Below, in pieces: positions 41,618 through 54,126 of a stretch of DNA of 54,271 nucleotides (the first letter of the stretch is position 1; every line of letters begins with the position of its first letter). A program made the position numbers and the translations under genes. The notes under the pieces were generated by a model, which was given only the letters and a program-made list of their open reading frames with translations, was not told where the DNA came from and did not search any database. Source of the DNA: Patescibacteria group bacterium. GTDB lineage: Bacteria; Patescibacteriota; Doudnabacteria; UBA920. The stretch is taken from contig WARV01000012.1 in assembly GCA_013387205.1 (NCBI GenBank), positions 1 through 54,271 on the forward strand, in the 5' to 3' direction.

Positions 41618-42280
41618 ATGAAAATTTTATTAGTTGAAGACGACGAATCAATAGCCAGCGTTATAAAAGCCGGTTTGCAGACCGAGCTTTTTGCTGTAGA
41701 TGTGGCTGACAACGGCGAAGAGGGTTCTTTGCTGGCACGGACTAACGATTACGATCTGGTTATTTTAGATGTCACTCTGCCGAGGAAGAGCGGGTCAGAT
41801 GTCTTGGCTGATATTCGAAATAAAGGAAAGACTGCACCCATTTTGGTACTGTCCGTAGAATCCGAAACAGATTTGAAAGTCAAGATGCTTGATGGTGGGG
41901 CAGATGACTATTTGAACAAACCTTTTTCGTTTAAGGAGCTCATGGCCAGAATTAGGGCCTTACTCCGCCGTCCCAAGAGGATCGAAGCCGAAGTACTTGC
42001 TGTTGATGACTTAAAACTTAATACGAAAACCCATGTAGTAACTAGGGATGGCAAAGATATCCGTTTGACCAGGAAAGAATTTATGCTGCTGGAATTGCTT
42101 ATGCACAATCACGGCGATGTAGTATCCCGGGGCATGATTGATGAGCATGTCTGGGATAACGAGGCTGACCCATTTTCCAAAACTATAGAATCCCATATTT
42201 TAAGCCTTCGCCGGAAGATAAACGAGAATGGGAAAAAGAAGCTGATAGAGACTTTATCGGGAAGGGGCTATAAAATATAG
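41618..42280 (+). CDS. OmpR/PhoB-family response regulator
   Basis: MKILLVEDDESIASVI...DLVILDVTLP...KPFSFKELMARIRALLRR; winged-helix RKEFMLLELLMHNHGDVVSRGMIDEHVWDN...VRDGK/IETLSGRGYKI. Confidence 0.93.
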   Translation: MKILLVEDDESIASVIKAGLQTELFAVDVADNGEEGSLLARTNDYDLVILDVTLPRKSGSDVLADIRNKGKTAPILVLSVESETDLKVKMLDGGADDYLNKPFSFKELMARIRALLRRPKRIEAEVLAVDDLKLNTKTHVVTRDGKDIRLTRKEFMLLELLMHNHGDVVSRGMIDEHVWDNEADPFSKTIESHILSLRRKINENGKKKLIETLSGRGYKI

Positions 42281-44336: not shown

Positions 44337-45074
44337 TCACAAGACAGTGAAGGTGTAGGTGTTTGAAACTGCGCCGTTACCTATTACTTCTTGGATACTC
44401 CACGTTCCGGCCGTCCCAAAAGTAATGGTCAGATTGTACTGTGTTGGGGCTTGCCCCCAAATTTGACTACCAGTGAGAATGGCATAGCCGCCACCAGGGA
44501 AATTTACGCGCACTGCCGTCACCGTTCCTTGGGTGGGCCCATACACTGTAAGAGTGATAGGGCTCGAAGAGTGACTGGGAGTGGCAGGGTAAATATTGTT
44601 GATGTAAGGTGATCCAGGGTACAGGTTGGGGTATATGTAGCCTCGGTCAAAGAAGGTCGCCGAATGGTATACGCCAGTCTGTGTGTAGTTGGAGCCGCAA
44701 TTCTGTTCAGTGACGAGGACTGAGCCGTCGTTGTTCACCTGTGTTACATACGCTACGTGACCGTATGTGCCGTAACTACTCACCCCAATAGTGCCTACCG
44801 AGGGAATATTCGTTACAACTTGGAGTCCGCTAGCACGGGCACTGTTTGCCCAGTTGTTCGCGTTACCCCAGTTGGTGGCAGGATAGCCCCAAAGGTCGTG
44901 CATCATCTGCCACGCCTTCCAGGTACAATTGCCGCCAGGGTATGGCGGGTTGCAACAGGCGTAAATGTTGCCGGGTGATGATTCACCGCCGCAAGTATCG
45001 GCAGCCTTCACTTGATCTGCATAAAAGCAGAGCATAAATACGAACATCACCAAAGTCGTCAGTGACTTCTTCAC
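44337..45074 (-). CDS. Secreted CHAP-domain amidase/peptidase
   Basis: GGNCTWKAWQMM Cys and YGTYGHVAYVTQVN His; SD GGAGG 5 nt before GTG at 45074 (in-frame upstream GTG at 45143 also possible). Confidence 0.85.
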   Translation of the reverse strand: MKKSLTTLVMFVFMLCFYADQVKAADTCGGESSPGNIYACCNPPYPGGNCTWKAWQMMHDLWGYPATNWGNANNWANSARASGLQVVTNIPSVGTIGVSSYGTYGHVAYVTQVNNDGSVLVTEQNCGSNYTQTGVYHSATFFDRGYIYPNLYPGSPYINNIYPATPSHSSSPITLTVYGPTQGTVTAVRVNFPGGGYAILTGSQIWGQAPTQYNLTITFGTAGTWSIQEVIGNGAVSNTYTFTVL

Positions 45075-45140
45075 GTTTTCCTCCAATTGGAATTTTTGGC
45101 GAATCATTTTCAGGATCCGTCGTTTATGCGCAAGCGAGCG

Positions 45141-45205
45141 CACAAGGGAAGTATAACTTCGCGGTGGTAAAATAAAATCAAATAAAAAGTAAAATTTTGG
45201 TAAAA
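45141..45205 (-). promoter_or_regulatory. Module A promoter: four-heptamer array + TATACT -10
   Basis: + strand GGTAAAA-TAAA-ATCAAAT-AAAA-AGTAAAA-TTTT-GGTAAAA (45166-45205); -10 AGTATA (45150-45155), 10-nt gap. Confidence 0.85.
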
Positions 45206-47240: not shown

Positions 47241-48305
47241 CTATTCCGTGACCGTGGACCCTACTGGATAGGAGTAGTAATCCGAGACACCGGCGATATT
47301 GCAAAACTGGTATGCCAGGTTGAGAAAGGCTTGGCCGGTGAAAGGCCGCCGCGTTCCATTGTCAGTGACAATAGACACCTCCGCCCCTCCCCATTGCTGG
47401 ATCAGCCTGCCGTCTGGTTGACTCCTGCCATTGCCAGTAAGGGCATCAATGACGTCGGCTCCGCGTGGGTATCTGTCCATCTCGGCTTGGGATATAATCA
47501 CGACATCTCTGAAGTCAAACCCTCGACCTGGTCCGTACAACTCCCAGAGCCTCTGCGGGCTGGAGATCATCCTCTTTTGGCCGTTCTGGAGGACGTAAAT
47601 AGCAGGGTTGCCATAGACCTGAACAATGGAACCATTGGGATGCAGGGGTAGGTTACCGTAGGGACGATACCTTTCCGCTGTCCCATTAGTACATTTTGGT
47701 GTGTTAGAAGTAATCCAACCCGTGGGATCTGTAAGACCGTTGGTACTCGGCCAAGAGTCATTTGGCATCGCCCCTAAGTTGTTGGAAGGAGGAGTGGTGT
47801 TTGGAACGATTCCGAAGTGGAGGTGATTTCCATTGCTCCAGTAACCGACTCTACCTATCTCAACTCCGCCCGTTACTCGGTCCCCAGCAACCAAGTTGGT
47901 GGTTATGTGCCCATAAAGTGCCAAGAACTCACTGCCGTTGCTTAGCGTATGCTTGATGAGAAGTCCCACATTACCTGTACCCCAATTGTTTGGACTTACG
48001 CTGTAGACCGTGCCGGGAGCTATCGCGTAAACGGGATTATTGAGACCATACATCATATCGTAGCCGATATGATAGTATTCGGGGAGATAGCATCCACCGT
48101 TAGCTGGATCCCGTCCGAGCCAAGTTCCGCAGGTGTAAGGGAAACTGCTCATCCCAGTGGGGTAAAAGAACCCTGTGCCGGTTTGGATAAAGGTCACTTC
48201 TTCTGCTCGAAGCAGATCAACACCGCTTCCAAACAGAAGAAAGAAAGCTGCCATAAACATGACGACGAAACCAACCTGGTGGTTAGTCCTAGAATAGAGT
48301 AACAC
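47241..48305 (-). CDS. Secreted M23-family peptidase with C-terminal surface repeats
   Basis: YHIGYDMMYG...VYAIAPGTVYSV...LYGHI...NHLHFGI; GTG start with GGAGG SD; C-terminal GNPAIYVLQNGQKR repeat. Confidence 0.85.
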   Translation of the reverse strand: MLLYSRTNHQVGFVVMFMAAFFLLFGSGVDLLRAEEVTFIQTGTGFFYPTGMSSFPYTCGTWLGRDPANGGCYLPEYYHIGYDMMYGLNNPVYAIAPGTVYSVSPNNWGTGNVGLLIKHTLSNGSEFLALYGHITTNLVAGDRVTGGVEIGRVGYWSNGNHLHFGIVPNTTPPSNNLGAMPNDSWPSTNGLTDPTGWITSNTPKCTNGTAERYRPYGNLPLHPNGSIVQVYGNPAIYVLQNGQKRMISSPQRLWELYGPGRGFDFRDVVIISQAEMDRYPRGADVIDALTGNGRSQPDGRLIQQWGGAEVSIVTDNGTRRPFTGQAFLNLAYQFCNIAGVSDYYSYPVGSTVTE

Positions 48306-48373: not shown

Positions 48374-48435
48374 AAAAAAAGTATAACCTTGCAGTAGTAA
48401 GATAAAATCAAAGAAAAGATAAAATTTTGGTAAAA
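48373..48435 (-). promoter_or_regulatory. Module B promoter
   Basis: AGTAAGA-TAAA-ATCAAAG-AAAA-GATAAAA-TTTT-GGTAAAA (48396-48435); AGTATA 48380-48385, 10-nt gap. Confidence 0.85.
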
Positions 48436-48604: not shown

Positions 48605-49036
48605 TTATTCTTGGCCCAACAATCTGCGGATTTTATCAAGAAGACGGCTGGAGGTGAACGGCTTACACAGAAAGTCGTGAACCCCGGCTTTAAGAGGGTC
48701 TTCGTTGGTAAAACCCGAAATACAAAGCACTTTTAGGCCAGGCTGGCGCTGCAAAAGCAGTTTTGCCAACTCTATTCCGCTCATGCCTGACATTTGGACA
48801 TCTGTCAGCAGAAGGGAAATCAGTTCTCCGCTGCTGTCGTATTTCATCAATGCCTCTTGGCCGCTTGAAGCTTCAATAACCTGATAACCCTTGGAAAGAA
48901 GCATTGAGCTAACCACTTTCCGGATACTGGCTTCGTCGTCTACCAGCAAGATAATTACGTTTTTTTGCTTTGGCTCAGTATTATTTGAGTCTAAAACCCG
49001 ACAACCTGCTTTTGGCGCATCGAATTGTGCGGCCAT
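48605..49036 (-). CDS. Receiver-domain-only response regulator
   Basis: VIILLVDDEASIRKVVSSMLLSKGYQV...LLTDVQMSGMSGIELAKLL...FLCKPFTSSRLLDKIRRLL; SD AAAGGAGGAG. Confidence 0.92.
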   Translation of the reverse strand: MAAQFDAPKAGCRVLDSNNTEPKQKNVIILLVDDEASIRKVVSSMLLSKGYQVIEASSGQEALMKYDSSGELISLLLTDVQMSGMSGIELAKLLLQRQPGLKVLCISGFTNEDPLKAGVHDFLCKPFTSSRLLDKIRRLLGQE

Positions 49037-49105
49037 TTATTTCTCCTCCTTTGAATTTTGTCGGGCCGTTGTCAGGTTCCGACGTTTACGCGCTCGCTTG
49101 CGCAC
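49037..49105 (-). CDS. Candidate leaderless 22-aa leader peptide upstream of receiver gene
   Basis: GTG 6 nt after TATACT; VRKRARKRRNLTTARQNSKEEK*; stop abuts the ATG. Confidence 0.45.
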   Translation of the reverse strand: MRKRARKRRNLTTARQNSKEEK

Positions 49106-49167
49106 AAGGAAAGTATAACCTTACAATGGTAAAATAAAATCAAAGAAAAAGTAAAATTTTGGTAAAA
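49105..49167 (-). promoter_or_regulatory. Module C promoter
   Basis: GGTAAAA-TAAA-ATCAAAG-AAAA-AGTAAAA-TTTT-GGTAAAA (49128-49167); AGTATA 49112-49117, 10-nt gap. Confidence 0.85.
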
Positions 49168-49398: not shown

Positions 49399-51348
49399 TC
49401 AGTAGTTCTTTAAAAAATCCTGCATTTTGCGGCTTTCATCCAATGCTTGCCTGGCAGCAGCTTCTGGTTTGACCAGTAAGCCTAACAAGACATCCGGTTT
49501 TTCTATAATTGATATTCGGGACAAAGATTGCCGTGCGGATTTAACGTGCTGGAGAATTTTTTTGGCTATATTTGGGATGATTTTATTCCAAAACAATTTT
49601 TGCAGTTTTTGTTCATCGCGTTTGAGGTCTACGGCCTTTTTGTAAAAAATACCCAGAACTTCCGCGCCAACGTAATTGATTCTGCCTGCACGCAAATCCT
49701 CCAGCCAATCATGTGCGTCATCGTTCAATTGGCGGGCAATGAGATAATGCGTGAAAAAACTTTTAAGATTTTTTGCTTCTATTGAGCCGGCAGGATATCC
49801 AATCAACATCAAAATAGTAAGCGGACCCAAGGCGTGCCCCAAACTTTTGTCTGCCAGCTGCTGTAAATTTTTAAAATCAGGGAGATTTTTGGGAACCGAC
49901 AGCTTGCCGTCCATAATTTGAACGCTGCAGTTTTTGCTCTCCCAAGCATTGGCCGCGTCAATATTATTCAAAATACCATTAACTAAGCTGTAATTATTAT
50001 TACGGCCGAACAGCCCTGTATAACAAGCGGTGACTTCCCGCAGACCAATATTAGCCACAGGCAAAAAATCAATATTACCCTCGCCATCAAAAAAGTCATC
50101 ATAAATAGTGTAAGCAATCCAGCCAAAAAGATTTGCCGTCCCCAAATCAATCACCCGCCTGTCCGTGATTCGTTTTCCTCTATCCCCCAAGCTTTCCCTG
50201 AACCAAAAAGGCAAAAGCCCGATTTGCCGGTCAATATCCTTTTCCGTTGTTTTATCCAAAGCCATAAGCGCATAATCTTTTACTTCCGGCGGTAAAGAGG
50301 AAAGTCTTGTATTTGCCTGATTGACAATGCTTTGGTATATTTTTTCATCCTGGGCACGGGAATTGTTACCAGGCTGCTTTGCAGGTTTATCGAGCAGCGG
50401 CAGATATTTCACCAGAGCTTCAAGACAGAAAGCCGTGGTTACACTGCCGGTTCCGGCAAAGCGTTTTTTCCCATTTTCTTCCGGAGCCAAATAAAAGGCA
50501 TTAGCAGGCCAACCTTTGCCATCGAAATTTTGCAAAAGATAATCTATGCTTTTCTCCAGTTCTTGCGGATTTTGGCAATCCAGATTGATTAAGGCGGAGA
50601 CGCTGAGCGCCGTGTCCAATGGATTGCCCCAGGAAAAATCTGGCTGTCTTTTTGAAACCAGGTATTCTGCTAGCTTTTCTTTGTAGCTTCCCTGATAAGA
50701 CCGCGAGATGAAATATGCTATGGGAATAGCTGAATAATATAAGGAGGCAAATTTTTTTGCTTTTATCGCTTGGTCAAAAAATGTGAGTATTTTGGGCAAC
50801 CGCACTTTTTGCATTGAAAGGAAATACGCCACATTGGCATTTACGGCCAAGTCGACATCCTGCCAAACTTTTGGCGCTCTCCTATCTACCAACCAGGTAT
50901 TATAAGGTCCGCCCGGTTCTATTTCCGTGTTTGCCAGCAGTTTAACAATGTGGGCCAAAACTTCTCCGTTGATGGTGTTGGAATTATAGCCGGCCAAAGC
51001 CGTTAATGCACAAAAGGTATCATCCAAATCATCCGGGTATGGAGTTAATCCGGCCTCCTGGGATTTTCTCTGCCAATAGTTAAAAGACCATTGTTGGCTT
51101 TTTTGCGATAACAAAAATCGGACAGCTTTCTGTCTTACCTTATCCGCCTTGGCTGAACGGGGCAAAGAATTTAAGCAATGTAAAATATTGGAAGTAAAAA
51201 AGGGCGTACGGTGAATTCTTGCTTTTTTAAAGTCATCTTGGCGGCCAGAATCCAAACCCAAAAAACTGCCGTCCGATTGCTGTTCCCTAGCCAAAAAATG
51301 GACGCCTTGACTTAAAATTTTGCGGATTTTTCCAGGAATTGTATTCAT
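49399..51348 (-). CDS. Terpenoid cyclase-like fusion: class II-like alpha-toroid (DxDD) plus class I-like domain (DDxxD)
   Basis: TPYPDDLDDTFCALTAL (DLDD at about 51019-51030), IYDDFFDGEGN, RQLNDDAHDWLEDLRAGR; ATG at 51348 overlaps kinase stop as ATGA. Confidence 0.7.
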   Translation of the reverse strand: MNTIPGKIRKILSQGVHFLAREQQSDGSFLGLDSGRQDDFKKARIHRTPFFTSNILHCLNSLPRSAKADKVRQKAVRFLLSQKSQQWSFNYWQRKSQEAGLTPYPDDLDDTFCALTALAGYNSNTINGEVLAHIVKLLANTEIEPGGPYNTWLVDRRAPKVWQDVDLAVNANVAYFLSMQKVRLPKILTFFDQAIKAKKFASLYYSAIPIAYFISRSYQGSYKEKLAEYLVSKRQPDFSWGNPLDTALSVSALINLDCQNPQELEKSIDYLLQNFDGKGWPANAFYLAPEENGKKRFAGTGSVTTAFCLEALVKYLPLLDKPAKQPGNNSRAQDEKIYQSIVNQANTRLSSLPPEVKDYALMALDKTTEKDIDRQIGLLPFWFRESLGDRGKRITDRRVIDLGTANLFGWIAYTIYDDFFDGEGNIDFLPVANIGLREVTACYTGLFGRNNNYSLVNGILNNIDAANAWESKNCSVQIMDGKLSVPKNLPDFKNLQQLADKSLGHALGPLTILMLIGYPAGSIEAKNLKSFFTHYLIARQLNDDAHDWLEDLRAGRINYVGAEVLGIFYKKAVDLKRDEQKLQKLFWNKIIPNIAKKILQHVKSARQSLSRISIIEKPDVLLGLLVKPEAAARQALDESRKMQDFLKNY

Positions 51349-52787
51349 GCGGTGAACTCTACGGTAAACGTTGAACCTTGAACCGGCAGACTTTTTACGC
51401 AAATGTTCCCTCCGAAATCTTTTTCAACGATATTTTTTGTGGTGGAAAGCCCTATCCCAGTGCCTTTTTCTAAATTTTTGGTGGTGAAAAACGGGTCGAA
51501 TATTTTCTCCAAAATATCAGGCGCAATCCCGCAGCCCCAATCCTGTACTTCCAGCCTGACTATATGGTGATTCTCGGCAAGCCGTATTTCCACTGCCCTT
51601 TTCCCGTTATCTTGCGCGGGCATATCGTCATAAGCATCTATGGCATTGGCTACTAAATTAGACAGCATCTGATGGAATTTTACGGGACTGCCGAAAGCCT
51701 GCACTTCGTGCTGCCTGACAAAATTTAATTCCACGTTAGCCTTGCGAGCCTTAAAATCTAACAGTTGCATTACTTGGTGGATTTCCTCATTCAAAGAAAA
51801 AGAGATTTTGGTTTCCTGATGGGACAGCTGTTTGCGTATGGCTCGGATGAAATTTTCCATCCGCCTTGCCGCGGCAATGCTGCCGTCCAAATAACTTTGG
51901 GCTTCTTCCAAATTCTGTCCTTTAATTTCTGCCAGTTTTCTTACGCTGATGGACACGGCAGTCAAAGGATTAATCAGGTCATGGAAAAGCCCGGAGGACA
52001 ACCGCCCGAACTCCGCGAACCGGTATAGCTGCGACATTTTTTCTACCTGCATTCTCTTTAATTCCCGCGTTCGCTCTTCAACTTTTACTTCCAGCAAATC
52101 CCGTTCCCGCTTTAACTCCGCCTCTGACCTCCGCGCCCGGTGCAGAGATTTTTCTATTTCGCGATTAGAGAGCCATGCAATAGTAACAACCAAAATATAA
52201 GTTATGCAAAATACGATGCCGTCGTTCATCCTGAATTGATAGCTGCTCCAGTAAACCTTGTGGGAGCTTAAATCGTTTAATTGTAAATAGGAAAGTGAAA
52301 TTACGGTAATAATGGTTATTGCGGTTATTAAAAAACTGAACCTTGTATTAATTAAGATACTGCTCATTATAATGATAACTGCATAACTTAAAATCATTTC
52401 AGGAAGAAAGACGCCCCAATAATAAGACCCGCTCGTAACAGCAGCGAAGTAAATGGCTAATAGTATAAAAGATGCCCAAATGAATTTACCTTTTTTAGAC
52501 AAAAAATAAAGGAATACAAAAACGCCCAAAATCAGAATGGGCGAAGTGGCTCCAAAACCTCCGAAGTCAGGGTGGTGAAAAATCCTATAAAAATTATTTA
52601 AGTTGACAATAATCAATAGAATTATTACGGCAAAAAGAATTATATTTAAAATAAGTTCTCTGCGTTTTTTATCCTCCTGGACAGATTTAGCTTTAATGAA
52701 TTTTTCAAATAAAAAATGAGCACTTCGATAAATGAAAGTGCTGCTGAAATGCCGGCATTTTTTTAGTAATTCTGCGCGCGTGCCCAT
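51345..52787 (-). CDS. Membrane sensor histidine kinase
   Basis: Six hydrophobic segments, coiled coil, GRLSSGLFHDLINPLTAVS, HATPase N/G boxes (LVANAIDAYDD, DWGCGIAP, GTGIGLS). Confidence 0.93.
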   Translation of the reverse strand: MGTRAELLKKCRHFSSTFIYRSAHFLFEKFIKAKSVQEDKKRRELILNIILFAVIILLIIVNLNNFYRIFHHPDFGGFGATSPILILGVFVFLYFLSKKGKFIWASFILLAIYFAAVTSGSYYWGVFLPEMILSYAVIIIMSSILINTRFSFLITAITIITVISLSYLQLNDLSSHKVYWSSYQFRMNDGIVFCITYILVVTIAWLSNREIEKSLHRARRSEAELKRERDLLEVKVEERTRELKRMQVEKMSQLYRFAEFGRLSSGLFHDLINPLTAVSISVRKLAEIKGQNLEEAQSYLDGSIAAARRMENFIRAIRKQLSHQETKISFSLNEEIHQVMQLLDFKARKANVELNFVRQHEVQAFGSPVKFHQMLSNLVANAIDAYDDMPAQDNGKRAVEIRLAENHHIVRLEVQDWGCGIAPDILEKIFDPFFTTKNLEKGTGIGLSTTKNIVEKDFGGNICVKSLPVQGSTFTVEFTA

Positions 52788-53041
52788 TTTTTTATCCACT
52801 ATGGTAGTGGCTCTGGCGACCAAGGAAGAAGGATATCTTGCGAAAGCGCAAGATTTTGCAACTTTTCCTGTTTTCGCGCAGCCTTATCAGTGAGCAGAGT
52901 CTGCAAAATATTTTCCATATTTTTACTTTCTGGTTTTTAATTTCGTTTTTGTTTCAGGCCCTCGACCTTAGACCCTTAGATCTTACCTACATTAATTGTA
53001 ATGGAAAATTTAAATAATATCAATTACCACGCAAGTTAAGG

Positions 53042-53164: not shown

Positions 53165-53227
53165 CCTCTAAAGTATAGTTTTGCAATGGTAAAATAAAAT
53201 CAAAGAAAAAGTAAAATTTTGGTAAAG
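53165..53227 (-). promoter_or_regulatory. Module D promoter
   Basis: GGTAAAA-TAAA-ATCAAAG-AAAA-AGTAAAA-TTTT-GGTAAAG (53188-53227); AGTATA 53172-53177, 10-nt gap. Confidence 0.85.
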
Positions 53228-53532: not shown

Positions 53533-54126
53533 GTGACCAGAACACAAGCGTTAAAAAATCAAAAAAAGGGAAATACCTATAAAAAAAACGGGTTGCCGGA
53601 TTTTTCTGTTTTGGGGCACTGGCAAGGAATGCCTATCCCGCCGGAGCCTCGTATGAAAATAATCCGCAGGCTTGCCAGGAAGTTTGTTAAAATTTCTGTT
53701 TATATCGGAGTTCCTCTGTATATATTTTTCCATTATTTTTACTATATTGATATTCCTAATTCCTGCTATATTTCTATCCGTCCTTCTTTCATAAGCTTTA
53801 GCAACCTGGAAATGAAACGCGGATTAAATTTGCTCAAACAAGATTTGCCGGAGAATTATTTAAAAGTGTGCGCTAACGTAAATAGCATAGATCCAAATTT
53901 CGGATGCGGAGGGTTTGGCGGAGGCTGTTTTTTCCCCAACGAACAAAATTCCACCGAAAAGGGAATGATTGCCATTGGCACCATTCCCGGAAACGCCGCT
54001 AAAACAGCAGCCGCAATTATCCACGAAACTTGCCACGCAATACAGTATCACGAATACCGCGCTTTTAATGAAAAGGAGTGCTATACAATCCAAGACGAAG
54101 CTTATAACAAGCTTACTAGAAAATAA
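53533..54126 (+). CDS. Membrane-anchored HExxH zincin-like protein
   Basis: TM segment then AAAIIHETCHAIQYHEYRAFNEKECYTIQDEAYN (HETCH). Confidence 0.65.
   Translation: MTRTQALKNQKKGNTYKKNGLPDFSVLGHWQGMPIPPEPRMKIIRRLARKFVKISVYIGVPLYIFFHYFYYIDIPNSCYISIRPSFISFSNLEMKRGLNLLKQDLPENYLKVCANVNSIDPNFGCGGFGGGCFFPNEQNSTEKGMIAIGTIPGNAAKTAAAIIHETCHAIQYHEYRAFNEKECYTIQDEAYNKLTRK

Follow-up and report, generated by a model that had tools for sequence, protein, structure and literature searches.

Introduction

Trans-prenyl diphosphate synthases make up the superfamily to which the peptide prenyltransferase ComQ belongs, and the cyclase MstE cyclises a prenyl chain that is already attached to its acceptor, a small aromatic. 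In ComQXPA, the competence pheromone system of Bacillus, ComQ prenylates a tryptophan of ComX; its first motif binds the prenyl donor, the tryptophan lies near the second, and N/GDxxx within the second aspartate-rich motif (SARM) is needed for tryptophan prenylation (PMC5331326). A census in 2014 found no ComQXPA outside the Firmicutes (PMC4008528). According to a review, the fusions ChrPC and NctPC (Hubrich et al. 2024) prenylate a peptide tryptophan and then cyclise the chain, and trans-IDS-like tryptophan prenyltransferases have a glutamine in common just before the SARM (PMC13290415).

Here we analyse a contig of a Patescibacteria group bacterium (54,271 nucleotides, the whole of which we call the window), for which a two-active-site isoprenoid enzyme coupled to a sensor kinase had been predicted. 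Motifs, fold and gene order bear this out. The candidate phyla radiation (CPR) is a huge group of mostly uncultured organisms living on other cells, and in the open-access literature searched for Patescibacteria/CPR nothing relevant turned up on ComX or on peptide pheromones. We consider it likely that the locus encodes a self-contained cell–cell signalling module, namely a ComQXPA-like system with a terpene-modified tryptophan peptide as its pheromone, in which the modification and the signalling are predicted steps. The features of the locus are collected in Table 1.

Table 1. Features of the module and of its predicted regulon in the window
Feature	Position	Strand	Evidence or remarks
OmpR-type response regulator, probable kinase partner	41618..42280	+	Response_reg and Trans_reg_C
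Secreted CHAP amidase/peptidase, predicted regulon member	44337..45143	−	CHAP 1.6e-17
Promoter element copy 4, upstream of CHAP protein	45143..45204	−	
Secreted M23 peptidase, predicted regulon member	47241..48305	−	Peptidase_M23 2.2e-12
Promoter element copy 3, upstream of M23 peptidase	48378..48434	−	
Receiver-only (CheY-like) protein, predicted regulon member	48605..49036	−	Response_reg 6.6e-22
Promoter element copy 2, upstream of receiver-only protein	49105..49166	−	
Fusion enzyme gene	49399..51348	−	ATG at 51348, stop at 49399, 649 aa
Fusion enzyme domains			aa 1-320, beta class II terpene cyclase; aa 328-649, trans-IPPS-like prenyltransferase
DDAHD, second aspartate-rich motif (aa 543-547), after invariant Q540	49708..49722	−	Alignment, profile comparison
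DDFFD, first aspartate-rich motif (aa 417-421)	50086..50100	−	Alignment, profile comparison
DLDD, class II acid motif (aa 107-110)	51019..51030	−	Alignment
Membrane histidine kinase, predicted pheromone receptor	51345..52799	−	HATPase_c 1.4e-22, HisKA 6.9e-4
Small ORF, predicted pheromone precursor	52799..52918	−	39 aa, MENILQTLLTDKAARKQEKLQNLALSQDILLPWSPEPLP; conservation and HMM
Leader hairpin with GGTCGA loop	52956..52975	−	Common to many relatives without a Shine-Dalgarno sequence
57-bp promoter element of the peptide-kinase-enzyme operon	53170..53226	−	TTTAC at 0/11/33 bp, TATACT at 3' end

Results

Fold and active sites of the fusion enzyme

The open reading frame of the enzyme has the coordinates and length given for it in the original prediction, and its ATG overlaps the stop codon of the upstream histidine kinase (ATGA). 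An AlphaFold model built with an 18-sequence alignment has a pLDDT of 91. Fold searches with this model match residues 2-319 to the terpene-cyclase domain of the HAD-type drimenol synthase AsDMS (Z 32, rmsd 2.5, 286 aligned residues) and the N-terminal domain also to MstE (Z 28), and they match residues 328-633 to polyprenyl diphosphate synthases (Z 24.7, 284 aligned residues). From the model, the N-terminal part is predicted to be a stand-alone, gamma-less class II beta domain, as in AsDMS and MstE, and the C-terminal domain to have a trans-prenyl-diphosphate-synthase fold rather than that of a diterpene-synthase alpha domain. An alpha fold, whose absence had been named as the structural ground for doubting the original prediction, is thus present in the model, and the proposal of a metal-binding C-terminal domain holds as far as its alpha-type fold is concerned; its closest matches, however, are the trans-prenyl diphosphate synthases.

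Sequence searches recognise the beta domain alone (9mhs, profile E 2e-19). No family was found for the C-terminal domain in Pfam, NCBIfam or PDB sequence searches. That of the window enzyme has no match to PF00348 (polyprenyl_synt) in Pfam, and among 50 relatives this family was matched by two, at E 0.02 or weaker, and Terpene_syn_C_2, weakly, by the C-terminal domains of three. TRIM21 and LegK7 also appeared in the PDB searches, at chance level, and were rejected. A profile comparison of the C-terminal domain with CPR prenyl diphosphate synthases gave E 2e-5 with both aspartate-rich motifs in register, and in that alignment the GGKRxR motif for IPP binding is absent from the domain. With two DDxxD motifs and no GGKRxR, the enzyme does not class as an IPP-elongating trans-prenyl diphosphate synthase.

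PYPDDLDDTF, IYDDFFDGEG and NDDAHDWLEDLRAGR are all found in the window enzyme. The first contains the DxDD-type class II motif that had been recognised in the N-terminal half (YPDDLDDTF), and it sits in the beta domain. The second is the DDxxD-like motif expected in the C-terminal half; in an alignment of 83 enzymes, D417 is kept in 80/81 and D421 in 81/81. Q540, D543, D547 and D551 are each likewise present in 81/81. The third, taken earlier for an NSE/DTE motif, is indeed a metal-binding motif but a SARM of the DDxxD type and not NSE. Since the residues aligned to DDFFD and DDAHD are kept across relatives, these motifs are not due to chance. Most of the 83 enzymes have an intact class II DxDD. 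In around 15 shortened or degenerate members this motif, or all of the first part of the beta domain, is gone; the C-terminal domain persists in these, almost always together with the tryptophan peptide described below, which argues that the C-terminal domain and the peptide form the core and that cyclisation is optional.

The DxDD and DDxxD motifs are also what speaks for the reading first offered for this gene, a shortened bifunctional class II/class I diterpene synthase. We regard this as very improbable, as the gamma domain of an alpha-beta-gamma architecture is missing, the beta domain alone precedes the C-terminal domain, and the latter ranks with prenyl diphosphate synthases; furthermore, such an enzyme would leave the peptide unexplained, and its host lacks isoprenoid genes among those searched. 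The product of the enzyme is probably a modified peptide and not a free diterpene.

A conserved tryptophan peptide upstream of the kinase

The gap upstream of the kinase contains a small ORF that did not figure in the original prediction, and its TAG overlaps the GTG of the kinase (TAGTG). Trp33 of the encoded peptide is the predicted modification site. Such an ORF was found in 68/68 assessable loci out of the 75 related loci described below, the other seven being without upstream sequence. The 71 distinct peptides are 33-40 residues long, and all of them carry the tryptophan, at position 2-8 from the end, with proline preceding it in 60/71. The leader is conserved as LIxKxLTDKxxRN, with the arginine in 62/68 and the anchor leucine in 68/68, although at the latter position the anchor pattern itself requires L or F.

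Peptide HMMs were cross-validated by training on half of the loci and testing on the other half, and recovered 35/35 and 36/36 held-out loci (71/71). Dinucleotide-shuffled regions, 1,420 in all, gave no match, and each locus had a single true site among the 14,833 small ORFs. The window peptide (E 1.8e-12) is the sole match among the small ORFs of the window. A locus from viral contigs that was outside HMM training (L128) carries the peptide with E 3.4e-18, and in one locus (L051) the peptide is in frame without a standard start. PF05952 (ComX) had no match in the genome itself nor for six of the peptides; this Pfam model is weak, with no control genome over the cut-off.

Kinase, response regulator and gene order

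The GTG start of the kinase is in frame with a longer mechanical ORF beginning at 52823. The protein has 5-6 predicted TM segments and H281 is invariant (61/61). The kinase lies directly upstream of the enzyme in 71/71 loci, the remaining four of the 75 ending at a contig edge, and the two genes overlap in 48 of these 71; the coupling to the kinase proposed for the window is conserved. Enzyme and kinase distances correlate with r 0.66, or 0.52 with the regulator removed. An OmpR-type regulator is found near the module in 60/75 loci, and the usual order among relatives is regulator, gap (peptide), kinase and enzyme. The regulator of the window, whose orthologs adjoin the module in most relatives, stands 7 kb from the module and is divergent, and is the probable partner of the kinase. 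The peptide would be the ligand of the kinase, which conserved gene order does not by itself prove.

An enzyme that makes a free small terpenoid as the signal for the kinase, in the manner of CqsA/CqsS, with the small ORF serving as a leader peptide or encoding a small regulatory protein instead of a substrate, would suit a beta domain closest to drimenol synthase, the three weak Terpene_syn_C_2 matches, and the sensor domain of the kinase, which is membrane-embedded and without a large extracellular part. This reading seems to us quite improbable given that an invariant C-terminal tryptophan in a variable surround behind a conserved leader has the look of a modified precursor, that a single tryptophan codon makes a poor attenuator, and that one locus (L029) keeps peptide and enzyme together with no kinase detected beside them.

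The conserved unit is regulator-peptide-kinase-enzyme alone. We found neither a dedicated exporter nor a leader peptidase for the module, and immunity or export genes are not conserved alongside it; ABC and MFS genes recur beside some modules, mostly as synteny of one clade.

Promoter element and candidate regulon

The whole 1.30-Mb genome contains the promoter-like 57-bp element exactly four times, each time inside the window (Table 1). The suggested wiring of the enzyme to cell-wall hydrolases thus has a basis in this genome in the four copies of one promoter element. BLAST found no relatives of the window's M23 and CHAP proteins near other modules, and hence the hydrolase link is limited to this genome. 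Upstream of the peptide, direct repeats spaced 11 bp are present at 14 loci versus 2.4 expected, and repeats spaced 22 bp at six versus 2.4 expected. Such spacings are like those for OmpR-type regulators, and the 11-bp repeats fit autoregulation by a regulator of this type, which is probable for the operon. If the signal controls wall hydrolases, it would recall competence fratricide or predation.

Probable autoregulation and a promoter element shared with wall hydrolases would also be expected if the modified peptide were mainly antimicrobial, a terpenoid lipopeptide bacteriocin whose two-component system provides immunity or autoinduction as for lantibiotics, and lipidated peptides are common among RiPP antimicrobials. 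The restriction of the conserved unit to four genes, with no immunity or export gene among them and with ABC genes mainly in one clade, makes an antimicrobial role unlikely.

The leader hairpin is not significant by folding energy alone. GGTCGA or AGTCGA lies at most 110 nt from the peptide start in 25/39 loci without a Shine-Dalgarno sequence as against 7/32 with one, and a hairpin stem of at least 6 is found in 15/32 as against 4.6% in shuffled flanks. The stems of the GGTCGA-loop hairpins (for example at L104, L106 and L099) differ in sequence between loci. All Rfam matches in the region are below the gathering score. Separately, positions 53533-54126 (+) encode a 197-residue protein with no Pfam match; it has a HETCH motif (IIHETCHAIQYHE) and may be a small metalloprotease.

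Distribution and isoprenoid supply

Enzyme matches were present in 18/379 sampled genomes of the phylum, and a scan of 84,980 GTDB species genomes gave the 75 related loci, whose lineage, where given in the record, is always Patescibacteria/CPR. Because the contig scan relied on motifs taken from CPR members, it would miss distant relatives elsewhere. The module is spread sporadically over the major CPR lineages, and neither Pfam nor NCBIfam annotates the four genes as a module.

Only two loci came from a scan of viral contigs. One contig classed as viral (L128, IMGVR_UViG_3300025012_001675) has a complete module, and in the other (L129) an enzyme fragment adjoins phage-tail-like genes; these represent either a mobile element or mis-binned host DNA. 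A scan of plasmids gave distant beta-domain matches only. Among these, a large 'tetratricopeptide repeat' protein on Nostoc sp. C052 plasmid pC052_D (L130, 6001-7071; 26.5%, E 3e-14) adjoins a 60-residue ORF and could belong to a terpenoid-peptide cluster. Another CPR genome encodes a membrane-anchored, stand-alone beta-type cyclase-like protein with SPDLDD (L032:8054-9076), which we rejected as a module member as it is beta-only, membrane-anchored and without a kinase.

At 14/75 loci a polyprenyl synthase gene lies next to the module, in one case (L088) between regulator and peptide, and the seven of these 14 genes that were scanned all match PF00348. The host genome of the window (98% complete) has no polyprenyl synthase (PF00348), UPP synthase, GcpE or HMG-CoA reductase, and neither do three carriers of the same family. 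The prenyl donor would therefore be scavenged, or made by genes outside those searched; its source is the main unexplained point of the pheromone reading.

Discussion

Gene content and order, the preserved leader with its single tryptophan, and the preserved metal-binding residues are evident from the sequences and the model, and are consistent with the following mechanism for a pheromone system. The C-terminal trans-IPPS-like domain would ionise a prenyl diphosphate and attach the chain to the C-terminal tryptophan of the 39-residue precursor, the conserved leader serving for recognition by the enzyme. The N-terminal class II domain, with its DxDD intact, would protonate and cyclise the chain before or after transfer. 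We infer this division of labour, attachment by the C-terminal domain and cyclisation by the beta domain, from the precedent of ComQ and ChrPC/NctPC. After trimming, the precursor would leave the cell as a terpene-modified peptide and be sensed by the membrane kinase, which would phosphorylate the OmpR-type regulator. The regulator would activate the peptide-kinase-enzyme operon in positive feedback and, in this genome, may also activate the two secreted cell-wall hydrolases and the receiver protein via the shared promoter element.

More tentatively, the module may represent a Patescibacteria-wide form of quorum sensing by a ribosomal peptide with a cyclised terpene on its C-terminal tryptophan. 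Members that lack isoprenoid synthesis might take the terpene from host or neighbour cells, and the signal would therefore report access to the host and switch on cell-wall hydrolases.

The module would be a two-component pheromone system built on a fusion of terpene cyclase and prenyltransferase, in bacteria not known to use peptide signalling; the enzyme chemistry of prenyltransferase-cyclase fusions has known precedent, and the genome mining of Hubrich et al. 2024 may already list some of these enzymes. The module would join two recently described ideas, ComX-type tryptophan prenylation and prenyl cyclisation on peptides, in one signalling system. It offers defined candidate ligands that can be synthesised, together with their candidate receptors, and it prompts one to ask where organisms lacking isoprenoid genes get the prenyl donor.

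Comparison with known systems

The closest known beta domain is that of AsDMS, by profile as well as by fold, and it has the same gamma-less class II site. The module enzyme is without the HAD phosphatase domain and has instead a C-terminal prenyltransferase domain; it begins with the beta domain, the match starting at about AsDMS residue 230, and so it is not a HAD-type drimenol synthase. MstE shares the fold of the beta domain at about 17% identity.

ComQXPA has the same four parts, an isoprenoid-synthase-fold enzyme, a short precursor with a tryptophan near its C-terminus, a membrane kinase and a regulator, likewise in a compact overlapping cluster. The position of the tryptophan agrees in 71/71 peptides. 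In contrast, the module enzyme has an added class II cyclase domain and resembles the polyprenyl_synt family by fold only, its SARM reads (N)DDxHD where ComQ has N/GDxxx, and the peptide is unrelated to PF05952. ComP is of the HisKA_3 type (PF07730) with 8-10 TM segments whereas the module kinase is of the HisKA type (PF00512) with about six, and ComA has a LuxR-type HTH (PF00196) whereas the module regulator is OmpR-type (Trans_reg_C, PF00486). As four defining features fail, in the enzyme family, the peptide family and the types of kinase and regulator, the module is not a ComQXPA member; it is ComQXPA-like, but its peptide, kinase and regulator are not homologous to those of comQXPA.

Ordinary prenyl synthases also often have a glutamine before the SARM. 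The review describes the P domain of ChrPC as trans-IDS-like and as having a conserved glutamine at that place, to which Q540 of the module enzyme corresponds. By comparison with ChrPC and NctPC as described in the review, the module cyclase is N-terminal and lost in many relatives, and the module enzyme is tied to a kinase and a regulator. What they have in common, by the model and the fold searches, is the fusion of a domain for isoprenoid transfer with a class II cyclase like MstE, which in ChrPC and NctPC, according to the review, acts on a peptide tryptophan.
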